This document shows, one piece after another, positions 28,538 through 34,218 of a DNA stretch of 64,000 bases. The translations under genes were made by a program, and so were the position numbers. The notes beneath the pieces are model-generated. The model was not told the DNA's origin. It made no database searches and worked only from the letters and a program-made list of their open reading frames with translations. Numbering within the stretch: the stretch's first letter is position 1; every line of letters begins with the position of its first letter. This DNA comes from an uncultured Bacteroidia bacterium (lineage in GTDB: Bacteria; Bacteroidota; Bacteroidia; Bacteroidales; UBA932): the NCBI GenBank assembly GCA_902769525.1, contig CACXPG010000005.1, positions 1-64,000 of the forward strand, read 5' to 3'.

Positions 28538-29581
28538 TCACTCTTCGTTCCTCTGCTTTAGCTGGACCTTGACGCTTTCTTTATGGATGATTTCCATCAG
28601 CGATTTGGCGAAATCCCTGTCCAGACCCAAGGATTCTGCAAGGTCTGACCTGTTTTCCACGATTTCGCTGTAGCGCTTGCTCTGGAGGACAGGCATATTG
28701 TTTCTCTGCTTGAAATCCCCTATCTGCCGGGAAACATCCATTCTCTTTGAAATAATCTGAAGAAGGCTTTCGTCCAGGGAATCGATCTGGGAACGGAAAG
28801 ACTCCAGACTCTGCTGGTTCCGGGAGTTTTCCCTGACTTTCAGGTGGGAGAGGATTTTCTCCAGCTGGATCGGGGTGATCTGCTGGGCTTTGTCGCTCAG
28901 GGCCTGGTCGGGATTGATGTGGCACTCTATCATAAGGCCGTCGTACATCAGGTCCAGGGCCTGCTGGGAAATCGGGGCGATAAGCTGCGGCTTGCCGCCC
29001 ATGTGGCTAGGGTCGCAGAGCATCTGGATGTCCGGGAACCTTCTTTTCATCTCGATAGGGATGTGCCACAGGGGAATGTTGCGGTAAATCTGGTTGCCGT
29101 AAGAGCTGAAGCCGCGGTGGACAAGTATTATCTGCCTGATCCCGGCATTCAGGAAACGCTCCAGGGCGCCGGCCCAGAGCTCGACATCGGGATTGACAGG
29201 ATTCTTGATCAGAAGAGCCTCCGGAGTCTTGTCCATATCCTTGACGGCATCCGCCAGAGCCTGGACCGCAAACGGGTCTGCAGTGGTGCGGGCTCCTATC
29301 CAGAGGATGTCCACCCCGGCTTCAAGGGCTTGTCTGAGATGCTCGGGGGTTGCCACTTCGCAGCAGGTTTTCAGCCCCGTCTCCTTTTTGACGTCGCTGA
29401 GCCACTGAAGGCCTTTGGCCCCTACTCCCTCAAACATTCCCGGCCTGGTCCTGGGCTTCCACAATCCGGCCCTGAAGGCGTAAATACCTGTATTGGCCAA
29501 GGCCTTTGCCGTTTCAATAACCTGCTCCCTGCTTTCTGCGCTGCAAGGGCCGGCTATAATCTTTATTTTGCTGCTCTTCAT
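28538..29581 (-). CDS. aroF: Bifunctional DAHP synthase / chorismate mutase
   Basis: 347 residues from ATG 29581 (a TTG at 29596 is in frame but not needed). The N-terminal 260 residues are a DAHP synthase of the KDO8PS-like class (IIAGPCSAESREQ, FRAGLWKPRTRPGMFEG, KNPVNPDVELWAGALE, LCDPSHMGGK). The C-terminal 85 residues are an AroQ-type chorismate mutase (FRSQIDSLDESLLQIISKRM then DVSRQIGDFK). One protein thus catalyses the first step of the shikimate pathway and the branch to prephenate, as known in Bacteroidota. A transcription attenuator with an aromatic-rich leader peptide precedes it at 29705-29854. It is divergent from aroB. Confidence 0.95.
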   Translation of the reverse strand: MKSSKIKIIAGPCSAESREQVIETAKALANTGIYAFRAGLWKPRTRPGMFEGVGAKGLQWLSDVKKETGLKTCCEVATPEHLRQALEAGVDILWIGARTTADPFAVQALADAVKDMDKTPEALLIKNPVNPDVELWAGALERFLNAGIRQIILVHRGFSSYGNQIYRNIPLWHIPIEMKRRFPDIQMLCDPSHMGGKPQLIAPISQQALDLMYDGLMIECHINPDQALSDKAQQITPIQLEKILSHLKVRENSRNQQSLESFRSQIDSLDESLLQIISKRMDVSRQIGDFKQRNNMPVLQSKRYSEIVENRSDLAESLGLDRDFAKSLMEIIHKESVKVQLKQRNEE

Positions 29582-29651
29582 AAAAAATTTGCTCAAGGGT
29601 GATCTGCAATCCTATATCAGGGGCATTATCCTAACCTATTTACTTTCCCCT

Positions 29652-29660
29652 GCAAATATA
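29652..29660 (-). promoter_or_regulatory. Possible internal promoter for the DAHP synthase gene
   Basis: TATATTTGC on the minus strand lies downstream of the attenuator and about 70 bases before the ATG. If active it would bypass attenuation and give basal expression. No matching -33 element stands at the usual spacing. Confidence 0.3.
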
Positions 29661-29704
29661 GCGATTGCAGTCCTCAAGAGCATCAACATACGCCACTTTG
29701 GCGC

Positions 29705-29734
29705 AAAAAAAATCCCGCTTCAATCAAAGCAGGA
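29705..29734 (-). terminator. Attenuator terminator upstream of the DAHP synthase gene
   Basis: On the minus strand TCCTGCTT pairs with AAGCGGGA (8 pairs, one G-U) across a 6-base loop, followed by eight T (29712-29705). The first arm overlaps the sequence that pairs in the alternative antiterminator, so the two structures exclude each other. Confidence 0.75.
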
Positions 29735-29778
29735 GAACACACACTATAACCAAAAACTGCAAATGCACGGTCTCCTGC
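29729..29778 (-). promoter_or_regulatory. Antiterminator stem of the aromatic attenuator
   Basis: On the minus strand GCAGGAGA (29778-29771) pairs perfectly with TCTCCTGC (29736-29729), taking up the first arm of the terminator. A shorter stem, TCCTG in the leader-peptide codons with CAGGA (start of the second arm), gives the third alternative. The layout matches the classic 1:2, 2:3, 3:4 scheme of trp and phe attenuators. Confidence 0.7.
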
Positions 29779-29779
29779 C

Positions 29780-29839
29780 TTACTCCTTATGCCAGGAATA
29801 AGACATATAAAGACCGTTATATCTGCTACTGATAAACAT
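29780..29839 (-). CDS. Aromatic leader peptide of the attenuator
   Basis: A 19-codon reading frame encodes MFISSRYNGLYMSYSWHKE, with one Phe, three Tyr and one Trp, a strong excess of aromatic codons for its length. The stop codon lies one base before the second arm of the antiterminator. Shortage of charged tRNA would stall the ribosome over the Tyr-Ser-Trp codons, free the second arm, allow the antiterminator and so switch on DAHP synthase/chorismate mutase. With plentiful aromatic amino acids the ribosome reaches the stop and the terminator forms. The mechanism is inferred from sequence alone. Confidence 0.7.
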   Translation of the reverse strand: MFISSRYNGLYMSYSWHKE

Positions 29840-29845
29840 CACGAT

Positions 29846-29882
29846 GCAAATATATGATATTTATTCTTTATGTTGATACAAA
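29846..29882 (-). promoter_or_regulatory. Promoter of the attenuator transcript
   Basis: TATATTTGC (minus strand, 29854-29846) is a full match to the -7 box. A TTTG lies at 29882-29879, 24 bases upstream, somewhat farther than usual. The start would fall about four bases before the leader-peptide ATG. Confidence 0.55.
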
Positions 29883-29930
29883 TCGTAATTATTTTTTAAC
29901 ATAATTTTCTCAAAGTGCCCAAAATTCATA

Positions 29931-29961
29931 TTGCAAATTGGATTAAAAAAGACTATATTTG
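29931..29961 (+). promoter_or_regulatory. aroB-aroDA-aroC promoter
   Basis: TTGC at 29931-29934, 19 bases, then TATATTTG at 29954-29961, a near-ideal Bacteroidota promoter. The leader would be about 24 bases. No attenuator is visible on this side. Confidence 0.65.
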
Positions 29962-29987
29962 CAAAGAAATAGAAGAACACACCTAAG

Positions 29988-31007
29988 ATGAAACTTTATA
30001 CACATAAGAATATCAATCAGTTGCAAAAATACATACCAAAAGAGTGTAATGTTTTTGCAATTATTGATAACAAAGTGAAAGATTATTTCAAGGCATTTAA
30101 AAACTGGAACTTTATAGGTATAGATGCCTTAGAAAATGCAAAGACTCTGGAAAAGGCCGGGGAAATCTGTTCCCGTCTGATGGAGATGAAGGCTGGAAGA
30201 GACTGCTTCATCATAGGTGCTGGCGGAGGAGTTACCACAGACCTGGCCGGTTTTGTGGCATCCATTTACAAGAGAGGAGTAAGGTTCGGGCTTGTCCCGA
30301 CAACCCTTCTGGCCGCTGCGGATGCCGCCATAGGAGGCAAAAACGGAGTCAATCACCTCGGTATAAAGAATATGATGGGAACTATCACCCAGCCCGAGTG
30401 GACATTCCAGAGCACGGAGTTTTTCAGGACACTGGATGAAAGGGTGTTCAAAGAAGGCATCGCCGAGATTCTGAAAACTTTTCTTCTTATGGACGAGGAA
30501 GGTTTCTATGAGAGCGCGGACTTCTTCAGGAACTATAACCACAGGTCCCCTTCCCAAAGGCAGGAACAGAATCTCCGCTCTCTTGTCAGGCGATGCGCCC
30601 TGAGGAAAATGCAGATCGTGGAAAAAGACGAGTTTGACCACCAGGCCAGAAGATTCCTCAACCTGGGCCACACATTTGGCCACGCCCTGGAGAGCTACTA
30701 TGGCGGAGAGATTCTTCACGGAGAGGCCGTGGCGGCCGGAACATTGGCCGCAGCCAGGCTGAGTGTAAAGCTGTCGCTGATGAAAGAAAGGACATTTGAC
30801 TTGATATCAGACTGTTATTCTGCCTGCGGAATATCGTTCCGCTTTGGCGTGAAGGCGGCAGACCTGCTGAAATACATTGTAAACGACAAGAAAATATCAG
30901 GTGGAGAAATCGTCTTCATCCTGCCTGTAGAAACTGGAACAAAAACCGAGGCCTGGAGTATTCCGCTGCCTGAATTCAAAAAACTCTGCAAAGGAGTTGT
31001 ACTTTAA
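29988..31007 (+). CDS. aroB: 3-dehydroquinate synthase
   Basis: 339 residues. It converts DAHP to 3-dehydroquinate with NAD and a divalent metal. The glycine-rich GAGGGVTTDLAGFVASIYKRG and the following VPTTLLAAADAAIGGKNGVN segment form the NAD/substrate site. NLGHTFGHALE and LHGEAVAAG give the metal and substrate ligands. First gene of a three-gene aromatic operon; the fused aroDA begins 12 bases later. Confidence 0.95.
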   Translation: MKLYTHKNINQLQKYIPKECNVFAIIDNKVKDYFKAFKNWNFIGIDALENAKTLEKAGEICSRLMEMKAGRDCFIIGAGGGVTTDLAGFVASIYKRGVRFGLVPTTLLAAADAAIGGKNGVNHLGIKNMMGTITQPEWTFQSTEFFRTLDERVFKEGIAEILKTFLLMDEEGFYESADFFRNYNHRSPSQRQEQNLRSLVRRCALRKMQIVEKDEFDHQARRFLNLGHTFGHALESYYGGEILHGEAVAAGTLAAARLSVKLSLMKERTFDLISDCYSACGISFRFGVKAADLLKYIVNDKKISGGEIVFILPVETGTKTEAWSIPLPEFKKLCKGVVL

Positions 31008-31019
31008 ACAGAGAAAACC

Positions 31020-33194
31020 ATGAAAGGCCCTGCCACACAAAAACTCTGCACCTGCATTGCCACACCTGACTTCGGGCAATGCCTGGACGAATTGAGAAGA
31101 TACCCGTTCGCCGAACTGAGAGCGGATTTGTGCGGCCTTTCGCTAGAGCAGACCGAAAAGGCAACTGCGGCCTGTCCCGGCATCATATTCACTCTCAGGT
31201 TTCCGGAAAAGGACGCGGATACTGCTTTAGGACAGTATCTTGCTGCCATAAACAACGGAGTGGCTTTCGTGGATGTGGATATCTGCGCCCCAAAAGCTTT
31301 CATAAAGGAAGTCAAGGACGCCATTTCCGCATCTGGAGGGAAGACCGGGCTCATCCTTAGCACCCATCCGGAAAACACGCCTTCCATGGAAGAGATGGAA
31401 AAAACCGTAGCTCTATGCCAAAAGACTGGAGCGGATATAGTAAAGATTGCCCCTCTGGCCAGTAATCTTGAAGAGGCCTCCAGGGTTCTCAGGCTCTACC
31501 ACCGGAATTTTGCCCCGGAGTCCCTTTTGGCCTTTGCCAGGGGAGAAGCCGGAACTTTCACCAGAGTTTCCTGCATTGGGCTAGGCGCTCCGTTCACTTA
31601 CTGCTGCGCTGACAAACCGGTTGCCCAGGGGCAGCTCACCCATAAACAAATGTCAAGACTTCTGGGAGACGGTCAGCAGCCTGTCAGAATTCCGGATATG
31701 AGAGACAGTCTTCTCTTTTCCAGGTTCTGCGAACCGGCCGTTTCACAAAAGGGCAACAGGAAAGAAAAGTCTGTAAGCGTCCCTTGCTCAAAGAGCATCG
31801 TTCAAAGAGCTTTGCTTGCCGCCGCAATCTGCCGTGGCGAGACTATTCTCAGAAACTTTGAGCCTTGCCAAGACACCAAGGCGGCTATCGGTTTCATCCG
31901 CAAATGCGGCTGCGTGGTCAAGTCAACTCGCGACGGACTTTCTGCAAGAGGAGAAAAGATGCTGATTGTCAGAAGCGCCGGAATAGCCAAGTGGAAGAGT
32001 TTCAAGTTCGCCGATATGGGAGAATCTGCTCTTCTGGCCAGAATGGCGCTGCCGCTTGCGGCCCTGGCCTCCACCCTGAGAAACCGCACCGCCATAGCCG
32101 TTCAGGCGGAGATAACCGGAGAGGGATCTCTCCTGGAAAGAGATTTTTCCTCAGCTATAGAATCTCTCAAGGCCGCCGGAGTCAAATGCACGGGAACCAA
32201 AAAAGCCGCCCGTGTCACTCTGCCGGTGGTCATTAGCGGAGCGTCTTTCAAAAAAGAATTCACCGTTTCCGGAAAAGACTCGTCGCAGATAATATCGGGA
32301 CTGCTGCTGGTACTCCCTCTTCTTTCCCACAATACAAAAATGACGGTCAACGATGCCGTGAGCATTCCTTTCATCGAGTTGACAATAAAGGTGCTGGAAG
32401 CCTTCGGGATAAAGGTCAAGATGAAAAGAGAAGACCGCACCCTGCATTTTGAAATCGAGGGCAAGCAGATCTACTACCCGGTGGACATGTTCCTGGAAGC
32501 AGACTGGAGCAGCGCCTCCAACTTTGCGGTGGCTGGAACTGTCGCCTCCTTCATATCTTCACAAAAGGGGCATACGGAGAGTTTCACCATCAAGAGAATG
32601 AGCGTTCCTACAACCCAGGCAGACGAGAGGATTCTGGAAGTGCTCAGACAATGCGGATCCAGCATCACCTTTTCAAATGTGCAAAAGCAAGATTTTGCTG
32701 TGGTGACAGACAACAAGTACAACACAAGACGCAGCTTCTACCACAATCTGTGCAATATGACTGTGCGCGCGGAAAAGCTTTCCGCATTCTGCTTTGACGC
32801 CACCGACTGTCCTGACCTCTTCCCGATCCTGACCACACTTGCCGTATGCTGCAACGGGCAGAGCCGCATAAAGGGAGCGCACAGGCTGGTAAACAAAGAA
32901 AGCAACCGGTCCCTGTCCATCCTTCAGGAATTCAGCCGGATGGGATATGAAGTCTATATAGAAAACGACGATCTGGTCATCCAGGGAAGAGGCGGAAGGG
33001 CTTCTTTCACCCAAAAGCAGATATTCTGCTCGTCCCACAACGACCACAGGATGGCGATGGCCATAATCGTCTGCGCCCTTACCAGAAGCCATCTGGAAAA
33101 CCCTCCTGCAGAAATATTCATCGACGATATTTCCTGCACGGAAAAATCTTTCCCTACTTTTGCGGAAAGGTTGAAACTGAACATACAAGCATAA
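31020..33194 (+). CDS. aroDA: Fused type I 3-dehydroquinate dehydratase and EPSP synthase
   Basis: 724 residues carrying two shikimate enzymes. Residues 1 to about 225 are a type I dehydroquinase: AELRADL, His116 in LSTHPENTPS, and Schiff-base Lys142 in DIVKIAPL, spaced as in E. coli AroD. A linker leads at about residue 250 to EPSP synthase: VPCSKSIVQRALLAAA (substrate-binding Lys-Ser), KDSSQIISGLLLVLP, LEADWSSASNFAVAG, DATDCPDLFPIL (catalytic Asp), NKESNRS and SHNDHRMAMA. The usual GNAGTALR glyphosate-loop motif is replaced by ADMGESALLAR. Shikimate dehydrogenase and kinase are not in this window. Confidence 0.92.
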   Translation: MKGPATQKLCTCIATPDFGQCLDELRRYPFAELRADLCGLSLEQTEKATAACPGIIFTLRFPEKDADTALGQYLAAINNGVAFVDVDICAPKAFIKEVKDAISASGGKTGLILSTHPENTPSMEEMEKTVALCQKTGADIVKIAPLASNLEEASRVLRLYHRNFAPESLLAFARGEAGTFTRVSCIGLGAPFTYCCADKPVAQGQLTHKQMSRLLGDGQQPVRIPDMRDSLLFSRFCEPAVSQKGNRKEKSVSVPCSKSIVQRALLAAAICRGETILRNFEPCQDTKAAIGFIRKCGCVVKSTRDGLSARGEKMLIVRSAGIAKWKSFKFADMGESALLARMALPLAALASTLRNRTAIAVQAEITGEGSLLERDFSSAIESLKAAGVKCTGTKKAARVTLPVVISGASFKKEFTVSGKDSSQIISGLLLVLPLLSHNTKMTVNDAVSIPFIELTIKVLEAFGIKVKMKREDRTLHFEIEGKQIYYPVDMFLEADWSSASNFAVAGTVASFISSQKGHTESFTIKRMSVPTTQADERILEVLRQCGSSITFSNVQKQDFAVVTDNKYNTRRSFYHNLCNMTVRAEKLSAFCFDATDCPDLFPILTTLAVCCNGQSRIKGAHRLVNKESNRSLSILQEFSRMGYEVYIENDDLVIQGRGGRASFTQKQIFCSSHNDHRMAMAIIVCALTRSHLENPPAEIFIDDISCTEKSFPTFAERLKLNIQA

Positions 33195-33198
33195 GATT

Positions 33199-34218
33199 AT
33201 GAACACTTACGGAAAGAATTTCACGATAACCATATTCGGAGAATCCCACGGAAAATGTACAGGAGCGGTCATTGACGGAGTGCCTGCAGGAACAGCCATC
33301 TGCGAGAGCGACTTTGCAGGGGCTCTGGAAAGAAGACGGAATGGAGACATTCCCGGACTCTCACAGGGAACAACCGCAAGAAAGGAAGAGGACCTTCCCG
33401 TAATACTTTCCGGCGTTCTGGACGGCAAGGCTACGGGAAGCCCTATAGCCGTCATCTTTGAAAACAAGGACTGCCGCTCTTCGGACTATGGGCAGTTCAG
33501 GGACCAGCCGAGGCCTTCCCACGCAGACTTTGCGGCAAATGCCAAGTTCAGCGGATTCAACGATATCAGGGGAGGCGGACAGTTCTCCGGAAGGATGACT
33601 CTTCCACTGGCGGCTGCCGGAGTTTTAGCCTTCAAGGCTCTGGAACAAAAAGGATTCAGCCTCAGCATCAAATCCCGGATCAAAGCCATCCAGGGCGAGG
33701 TTGACGAAAAGAAGTGGAACGGACTGATCCAGCAGGCCAAAGCGGATGGAGACTCTCTTGGCGGAGAAGTCGAATGCCGGATAGACGGCCTGGCGGCGGG
33801 TGTCGGGGAGCCTTTCTTCAATTCTCTGGAATCTGCGATTTCTCACCTTGCCTTTTCAGTTCCGGGAGTCAAGGGCATCCAGTTCGGAGACTTTTCCGAC
33901 TCTCCTGAAGGAAAGAACAAGGCATCGCTGATGAAAGGGTCAGAGTTCAACGACCCGATAATAGATTCCCAAGGCCATACCTCCACCAACCACAGCGGAG
34001 GAATCAACGGAGGGCTATCAAATGGCAATCCGGTGGTGTTCACTCTGGATATCAGGCCTGCGGCAAGCATAGCCAAAGCTCAGCAGACCTTCAATTTTAA
34101 AAGCGGCAAGACAGAAAAACTGAGCATCGGAGGCCGTCACGACGCGTGCATAGCTCTCCGATGCCCTGTAATTGCCGAATCCGTTGCCGCCATTGCTCTG
34201 GCGGACATCCTGTTATAG
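33199..34218 (+). CDS. aroC: Chorismate synthase
   Basis: 339 residues. It converts EPSP to chorismate using reduced FMN. ITIFGESHGKCTGAVIDGVP, then RRRNGDIPGLSQ, and later SHADFAANAKFSGFNDIRGGGQFSGR and GGRHDACIALR are the family signatures, including the two conserved His. It starts four bases after aroDA and closes the operon. Its last six bases overlap the convergent serine hydrolase gene. Confidence 0.96.
   Translation: MNTYGKNFTITIFGESHGKCTGAVIDGVPAGTAICESDFAGALERRRNGDIPGLSQGTTARKEEDLPVILSGVLDGKATGSPIAVIFENKDCRSSDYGQFRDQPRPSHADFAANAKFSGFNDIRGGGQFSGRMTLPLAAAGVLAFKALEQKGFSLSIKSRIKAIQGEVDEKKWNGLIQQAKADGDSLGGEVECRIDGLAAGVGEPFFNSLESAISHLAFSVPGVKGIQFGDFSDSPEGKNKASLMKGSEFNDPIIDSQGHTSTNHSGGINGGLSNGNPVVFTLDIRPAASIAKAQQTFNFKSGKTEKLSIGGRHDACIALRCPVIAESVAAIALADILL

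Follow-up and report, generated by a model that had tools for sequence, protein, structure and literature searches.

The 64-kb stretch of DNA analyzed here (the window) is part of contig 5 of a 2.23-Mb, 92% complete Bacteroidales genome of rumen type. Two genes of aromatic amino-acid synthesis stand back to back in it (Table 1). The gene on the minus strand encodes a bifunctional DAHP synthase/chorismate mutase (DAHPS/CM), whose domains were recognized as PF00793 and PF01817 by Pfam profile search; it performs the entry step of the pathway and forms a transcription unit of a single gene. On the opposite strand aroB is followed by an ORF that joins type I 3-dehydroquinase and EPSP synthase, and then by aroC. 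The parts of a predicted attenuator lie in the space between DAHPS/CM and aroB.

Table 1. Genes and predicted RNA elements around the DAHPS/CM gene, in window coordinates
Feature	Position	Strand	Remarks
DAHPS/CM gene	28538..29581	-	Bifunctional, 347 aa; DAHP_synth_1 + CM_2; likely ATG 29581; putative regulated gene
P2, second -7-like box TATATTTG	29653..29660	-	Between terminator and gene; candidate attenuator-independent promoter
T8 tract of terminator	29712-29705	-	
Intrinsic terminator hairpin (3:4)	29713..29734	-	TCCTGCTT (29734-29727) / AAGCGGGA (29720-29713)
Segment 3, TCTCCTGC	29736-29729	-	Arm common to antiterminator and terminator
Conserved GGTTATAGTGTGTG	29738..29751	-	Between segments 2 and 3
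Segment 2, GCAGGAGA	29778-29771	-	Antiterminator 5' arm; pairing extends to 29781
Protector (1:2), inner stem	29776..29805	-	TGTCTTATTCCT (29805-29794) / AGGAGTAAGGCA (29787-29776); within end of leader ORF
Protector (1:2), outer stem	29767..29817	-	ACGGTC (29817-29812) / GACCGT (29772-29767)
Leader ORF MFISSRYNGLYMSYSWHKE	29839-29780	-	19 codons + TAA; start ATG 29839
P1, -7-like box TATATTTG (TAnnTTTG)	29854-29847	-	End of box 7 bases before leader ATG
aroB	29988..31007	+	Divergent neighbor, heads plus-strand gene row
aroD-aroA fusion	31020-33194	+	After aroB
aroC	33199-34218	+	After aroD-aroA fusion

A scan of both strands finds a short, aromatic-rich ORF with a terminator behind it at only one place in the 64 kb, and this is the 19-codon leader upstream of DAHPS/CM, with one Phe, three Tyr, and one Trp codon. 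Tyr11, Tyr14, and Trp16 are its presumed control codons. The octamer in front of the leader is one that we take to be a Bacteroidota-type -7 box, with TAnnTTTG as the consensus; its extended form TAnnTTTGC occurs upstream in all 10 group-A loci inspected, including the leader-deleted locus L051, and the transcript probably starts at the leader ATG or a few bases before it. The second box is likewise invariant in 10/10 group-A loci, among them L051, which has no leader peptide. This conservation suggests that P2 may be a source of basal transcription, which could make attenuation leaky.

From the end of the leader onward, three stems overlap: the protector and the antiterminator have one arm in common, as do the antiterminator and the terminator, and segment 2 is complementary to segment 3. 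Most of this had been proposed in a prior sequence-only reading of the window. The -7 box and the leader frame with its aromatic codons are all present on the minus strand, the complementarity and positions of the antiterminator and of the terminator with its eight T are confirmed, and so are the shared arm and the mutually exclusive pairings of the last two stems. That reading also had a third stem pairing the Ser-Trp codons with the antiterminator arm. The stem exists, but only the Ser codon and the first base of the Trp codon are paired in it, its 5' arm consisting mostly of Ser13-Tyr14-Ser15. Folding of the leader yields -57.1 kcal/mol, compared with -37.8 (sd 3.5) in 200 shuffles (z -5.46). 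Pairing of segment 2 with segment 3 is equalled or exceeded in stability in 0/400 shuffles for the window, and lies above shuffled sequence in all 12 leaders of this type.

The predicted structure depends on where the ribosome stands. Taking the 3' edge of a ribosome to lie about 15 bases beyond the P site, we modeled its presence by deleting the RNA up to that edge and folding the remainder to minimum free energy. Free RNA gives the terminator in 12/12 window-type leaders, and a stall at codon 7 still does so in 11/12; a stall at codon 11, 14, or 16 gives the antiterminator in 12/12 each, and a ribosome at the stop codon gives the terminator again in 12/12. With the assumed footprint, a stalled ribosome leaves segment 2 free and one at the stop codon covers it. 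This codon-by-codon folding marks the conserved Tyr14 and Trp16, together with the Tyr-rich codons before them, as structure-switching stall sites in the model.

Taken with their conservation, their exclusive pairings, and the fold predicted for each state, these parts very probably make up a trp/phe-type transcription attenuator, mediated by the ribosome, before DAHPS/CM, with Tyr and/or Trp as the sensed amino acid. RNA polymerase would start at P1 and a ribosome would translate the leader behind it. When charged tRNA-Tyr and/or tRNA-Trp is in good supply, the ribosome would reach the stop codon and cover segment 2, leaving segments 3 and 4 to form the terminator, and transcription would end about 125 bases before the gene. 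A stall at Tyr11, Tyr14, or Trp16 would mask the 5' arm of the protector stem, so that segment 2 could pair with segment 3, no terminator would form, and the polymerase would read through into the gene. If the leader were left untranslated, the protector stem would hold segment 2 and termination would be the default. As to the sensor, we tentatively favor Tyr alone, consider a joint response to Tyr and Trp quite possible, and regard Trp alone as doubtful.

The distribution of the leader was followed through a sample of 39 genomes of the genus. Protein matches at the level of DAHPS/CM are found in 36/39 (one of them partial), and the remaining three returned only fragments or a related synthase in the protein search. 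Upstream regions were read for 31 of the 36 (L046-L075 and L077), the other five having no locus; at L066 the upstream sequence, 177 bases, is too short to judge whether a leader is present. The leader stands before 12 of the 31 loci. Nine of these, including the window, form clade A (68-100% protein identity), and three more distant relatives (57-59%) form clade B. Eight clade-A leaders also occur in public contigs (L002, L003, L004, L006, L007, L008, L009, and L023), mostly from rumen or omasum MAGs. The first selection of window-type leaders required three or more aromatic codons and a terminator, and later selections used the Tyr-Ser-Trp motif; among the 12, apart from the start, only Tyr14-Ser15-Trp16 is invariant. 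The length is 19 codons throughout, in ten distinct sequences that end in TAA (7), TAG (2), or TGA (3). Residues are otherwise mostly variable and the N-terminal half differs between the two clades, with Arg6 (AGA) in 11/12 leaders and an extra Tyr at codon 11, 12, or 13 in 11/12. Within the invariant triplet, Tyr is spelled TAT or TAC and Ser is spelled TCC or TCT. The fixed length, the three stop spellings, and the synonymous changes in the invariant triplet point to selection on the reading of the leader and not on the RNA alone.

The stems are preserved along with the codons, with some unevenness. The inner protector stem keeps 12/12 pairs in seven of the eight rows of alignment A1, the exception being L053 (9/12); the outer stem has all six pairs only in L046, which is the window's own sequence, and three to five of six in the other seven rows. 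L053 also pairs at only 6/8 antiterminator positions in this alignment and does not stand out from shuffles in its fold (z -0.88); its pairing of segments 2 and 3 is significant in another register. The sequence-only reading had looked to orthologous upstream regions for conserved aromatic codons and covarying stems. Codons and stems are indeed kept in 12 genomes, but the stems of clade A are nearly identical and therefore covary little, which counts against the attenuator.

One stretch between segments 2 and 3, GGTTATAGTGTGTG, is conserved beyond what the stems require, and its clade-B form is GGTTAAAGTGTAAA. Its pattern occurs in 17/39 genomes of the genus, in 14 of them at the DAHPS/CM locus. 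We considered whether the GGTTAWAGTGTRWR motif might be a separate element used elsewhere and rejected this; the three of the 17 genomes with off-locus occurrences carry it inside apparently coding, unrelated sequence.

Two loci of the same genus, L051 (G014) and L071 (G018), have the leader peptide deleted close behind the promoter, with the GGTTAWAGTGT motif kept; L051 also retains the terminator and P2. Judged by their upstream regions, both are natural knock-outs of the attenuator. At L056 and L057 no leader is seen upstream of DAHPS/CM. These losses and absences show that the leader is dispensable.

The 12 leader-bearing genomes (G000, G003, G009, G012, G015, G016, G022, G023, G024, G028, G030, and G035) retain the shikimate genes and chorismate mutase. 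Enzymes that would lead from there to the aromatic amino acids were searched for and are missing from all 12. Prephenate dehydratase is detected in 16/39 genomes of the genus and 0/12 of the leader-bearing ones, prephenate dehydrogenase in 18/39 and 0/12, TrpA in 4/39 (three over the cut-off) and 0/12, and chorismate-binding enzymes in 3/39 and 0/12. To the extent that a clade-specific TyrA query can show, TyrA was not overlooked through divergence from its Pfam profile; the query finds 17/39 and again 0/12. Assembly gaps are an unlikely cause, because the 12 genomes give a uniform result and five of them reach 90% completeness or more. The physiological logic of control by Tyr or Trp is thereby weakened, since no recognized enzymes leading from chorismate or prephenate to these amino acids are present among those searched.

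Related leaders are found before another gene of the pathway. All 16 genomes of the genus that have pheA, the prephenate dehydratase gene, carry before it a leader with a run of Phe and Tyr codons (FYFYFYF type), such as MLNRRFYGSYYFYFYFIR (L119) and MRQHRFTYSYFYYFYFSTR (L120). Thirteen of them pass the scan with a terminator, and the other three (L116, L117, and L118) have a hairpin with a poor T tail. In 15 of the 16, a single contig carries pheA, DAHPS/CM, and tyrA in colinear order (the exception is G034, where contigs break), and between pheA and DAHPS/CM lies what is presumably an aminotransferase gene. A covariance model of the window leader weakly matches 12 of the 16 pheA upstream regions (E 0.0005 to 0.42); the same search gives two wrong-strand matches (E 0.29 and 0.75), and the weakest pheA matches are no better than these. 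Covariance model R1 finds matches in 14 of 398 genomes of the family, all in the window's genus, including G014 with its leader-deleted locus and G025 with a pheA leader; it is mostly a sequence model, with only 13 pairs kept in the RNAalifold structure.

The same kind of leader extends through the order. pheA was found in 83 of 197 genomes of the order sample, and 60 of the 83 loci were read: a leader with a terminator is present in 49/60, compared with 0/180 dinucleotide shuffles and 3/70 wrong-strand regions. The scan gives no leader in the other 11, among which L283 and L211 have 235 and 218 bases upstream. Outside the order, 2/10 loci of the class have a leader and 8/10 have none by the scan, and the phylum search, with 30 pheA loci (L175-L204), yields a single weak scan match, L191. 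Pairing of segments 2 and 3 exceeds that of shuffles in 13/13 genus leaders and 36/49 order leaders scored. Among the 61 loci with a pairing p < 0.05, clades A and B included, there are 51 distinct segment-2 and 51 distinct segment-3 strings, which amounts to strong compensatory variation. When the stalled state is folded, the terminator still forms in 8/13 genus and 43/49 order cases. This implies either that antitermination in the pheA leaders is kinetic, depending on the order of synthesis, or that the modeled stall position is wrong.

Two complete Phe/Tyr leader-terminator modules stand in tandem before pheA at 8/60 order loci (L208, L224, L231, L232, L277, L280, L292, and L300); L216, where the second scan match lies inside pheA, is not counted. 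To our knowledge, tandem leader-peptide attenuators are unusual. Among 40 DAHPS stretches of the family, the seven with a scan match were inspected. Sphingobacteriales MAGs have leaders rich in Tyr as well: L035 (at about 1405) carries MKINFTYYTPAYYYCCHGSKYV one gene upstream of DAHPS/CM, L038 (at about 883) carries MTCSNAYYGYYYPFKKGPVRIC two genes upstream, and both leaders have strong terminators.

Gene order and codon content connect the two kinds of leader. DAHPS/CM is divergent beside aroB in 12/12 leader-bearing loci and also in L051, L071, L056, L057, and L093, as against 0/14 of the rows with a pheA operon, these counts covering the flanking sequence within the retrieved stretches. In the DAHPS/CM tree, for which a midpoint root was used for drawing, the aroB-divergent rows of the genus group with L066 in one moderately supported fork (85/86), and L093, from another genus, lies just outside it. 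The simplest account is that DAHPS/CM left the pheA operon once, that its leader either moved with it or was formed anew, and that several losses followed. The codons of the two kinds of leader differ: clade A averages 0.8 Phe codons per leader and clade B has none (mean about 0.6) versus 4.5 in the pheA leaders of the genus; Tyr codons number about 2.9 versus 4.2; and Trp occurs in 12/12 window-type leaders versus 0/13 scanned pheA leaders. By this comparison, the switch in the window is most likely a relocated descendant of the pheA Phe/Tyr attenuator that lost the Phe run and gained Trp. The loss of Phe codons fits the absence of prephenate dehydratase from all 12 leader-bearing genomes.

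In the trp and pheA attenuators of Escherichia coli, a leader ORF has control codons near its stop, and protector, antiterminator, and terminator overlap in that order. The window follows the same plan, its control codons lying shortly before the stop and its stems overlapping, as the sequence-only reading had held; the persistence of leader codons and exclusive stems in 12 genomes and the similar Phe/Tyr leaders before pheA in relatives bear this out. It differs in phylum, in its DAHPS/CM target, in having no Phe or Trp run, and in a leader ATG that stands nearly at the promoter. The Rfam model Phe_leader (RF01859), which represents the pheA attenuator, has no match in the window leader; across 12 further loci scanned it matches two pheA leaders of the order, both below its gathering score of 55 (L232, 34.4 bits, E 0.036; L215, 30 bits, E 0.35).

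The mechanism is thus already known, and attenuators of DAHP synthase genes have already been reported or predicted elsewhere. The aroR leader before aroF of Corynebacterium glutamicum, as described in a review, is an attenuator with Phe-Tyr-Phe codons that responds to Phe and not to Tyr (PMC11802643). Both systems are leader-peptide attenuators on a DAHP synthase gene, but C. glutamicum is an actinobacterium, and the window leader lacks a Phe run and has Tyr and Trp. The uORFC-13-1 motif is a predicted uORF attenuator found exclusively upstream of aroF, a DAHP synthase gene (PMC8632094); it shares this target with the window but belongs to Acholeplasma and unassigned environmental sequences, has a Phe codon, and is a computational prediction only. 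Within the phylum, a 2021 study of Flavobacterium psychrophilum gives structured 5' elements before pheA and hisG and reports strong indications that operons for amino acids are under leader-peptide attenuation, the pheA element being conserved in the family and having no Rfam match (PMC9723704). This element belongs to another order and precedes another gene. A 2010 survey knew leader-peptide systems, apart from ermC, solely from Proteobacteria and Actinobacteria and itself reported one in Firmicutes, and its main text has no word beginning with Bacteroid; a 2020 paper mentions short ORFs reminiscent of leader peptides in Bacteroides thetaiotaomicron. Our literature search, with subscription journals mostly outside it, found no description of a DAHPS/CM leader or of a pheA leader family in Bacteroidales. 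The statement of the sequence-only reading that it knew of no described DAHPS/CM example in Bacteroidota stands to that extent, within the limits set by Corynebacterium aroR, the Acholeplasma prediction, and the Flavobacterium pheA 5' element.

Other explanations of the locus have to be weighed against a Tyr/Trp attenuator. The leader and terminator might be a decayed remnant of the pheA attenuator, with the gene expressed constitutively from P2 and the leader irrelevant. The invariance of the P2 box even where L051 has lost its leader peptide, the leaderless L056 and L057, and the failure to detect terminal aromatic enzymes in leader-bearing genomes all speak for such decay; what makes it improbable is that 19 codons, three stop spellings, a Tyr-Ser-Trp triplet with synonymous changes, and position-dependent folding are kept in 12 genomes. 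That the attenuator is real and senses a general slowing of translation, or an amino acid other than Tyr and Trp, is scarcely probable either. The invariant Ser15, the nearly constant AGA codon for Arg6, and a pathway without a recognized aromatic end product would suit it, but the related leaders are dense runs of Phe and Tyr, not of Ser or Arg. Arg6 lies too early for sensing, as a stall at codon 7 already folds to the terminator in 11/12, and Ser15 is itself flanked by Tyr and Trp.

Two further proposals fare worse. If the short ORF served to make a small protein with a function of its own, the terminator doing no more than ending its mRNA, its conservation would be accounted for, but most of its residues vary, only the Tyr-Ser-Trp triplet and the length being kept and the N-terminal half differing between the clades, and the conservation of the antiterminator would be left unexplained; we regard this as very improbable. 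The conserved GGTTATAGTGTGTG invites comparison with a riboswitch or T-box that binds a metabolite or tRNA directly. Against this, the leader part of the window matches no Rfam family at gathering threshold, the best match over 29600-30000 has E 0.7 with no T-box among the matches, and the T-box covariance model itself finds nothing in the leader region, so that direct binding, too, is most improbable.

Leader-peptide attenuation is a textbook mechanism in Proteobacteria, and in the literature searched it is hardly documented in Bacteroidota, a dominant phylum of gut and rumen. The present evidence points to an order-wide family of Phe/Tyr attenuators before pheA, from which one lineage moved the switch to the first enzyme of the pathway and changed its codons; the series of lineages is a natural example of the retuning of a codon-reading sensor. 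If the switch still answers to tyrosine, then these genomes must hold an unrecognized route from prephenate to tyrosine. That the leader is a record of such a route, its codon change following the rewiring of a pathway, and this in addition to a Phe/Tyr attenuator family that spans the order, is sometimes tandem, and seems not to have been described, is a conjecture that we consider rather unlikely. With their end enzymes missing, these genomes make the leader a pointer to undescribed aromatic metabolism.
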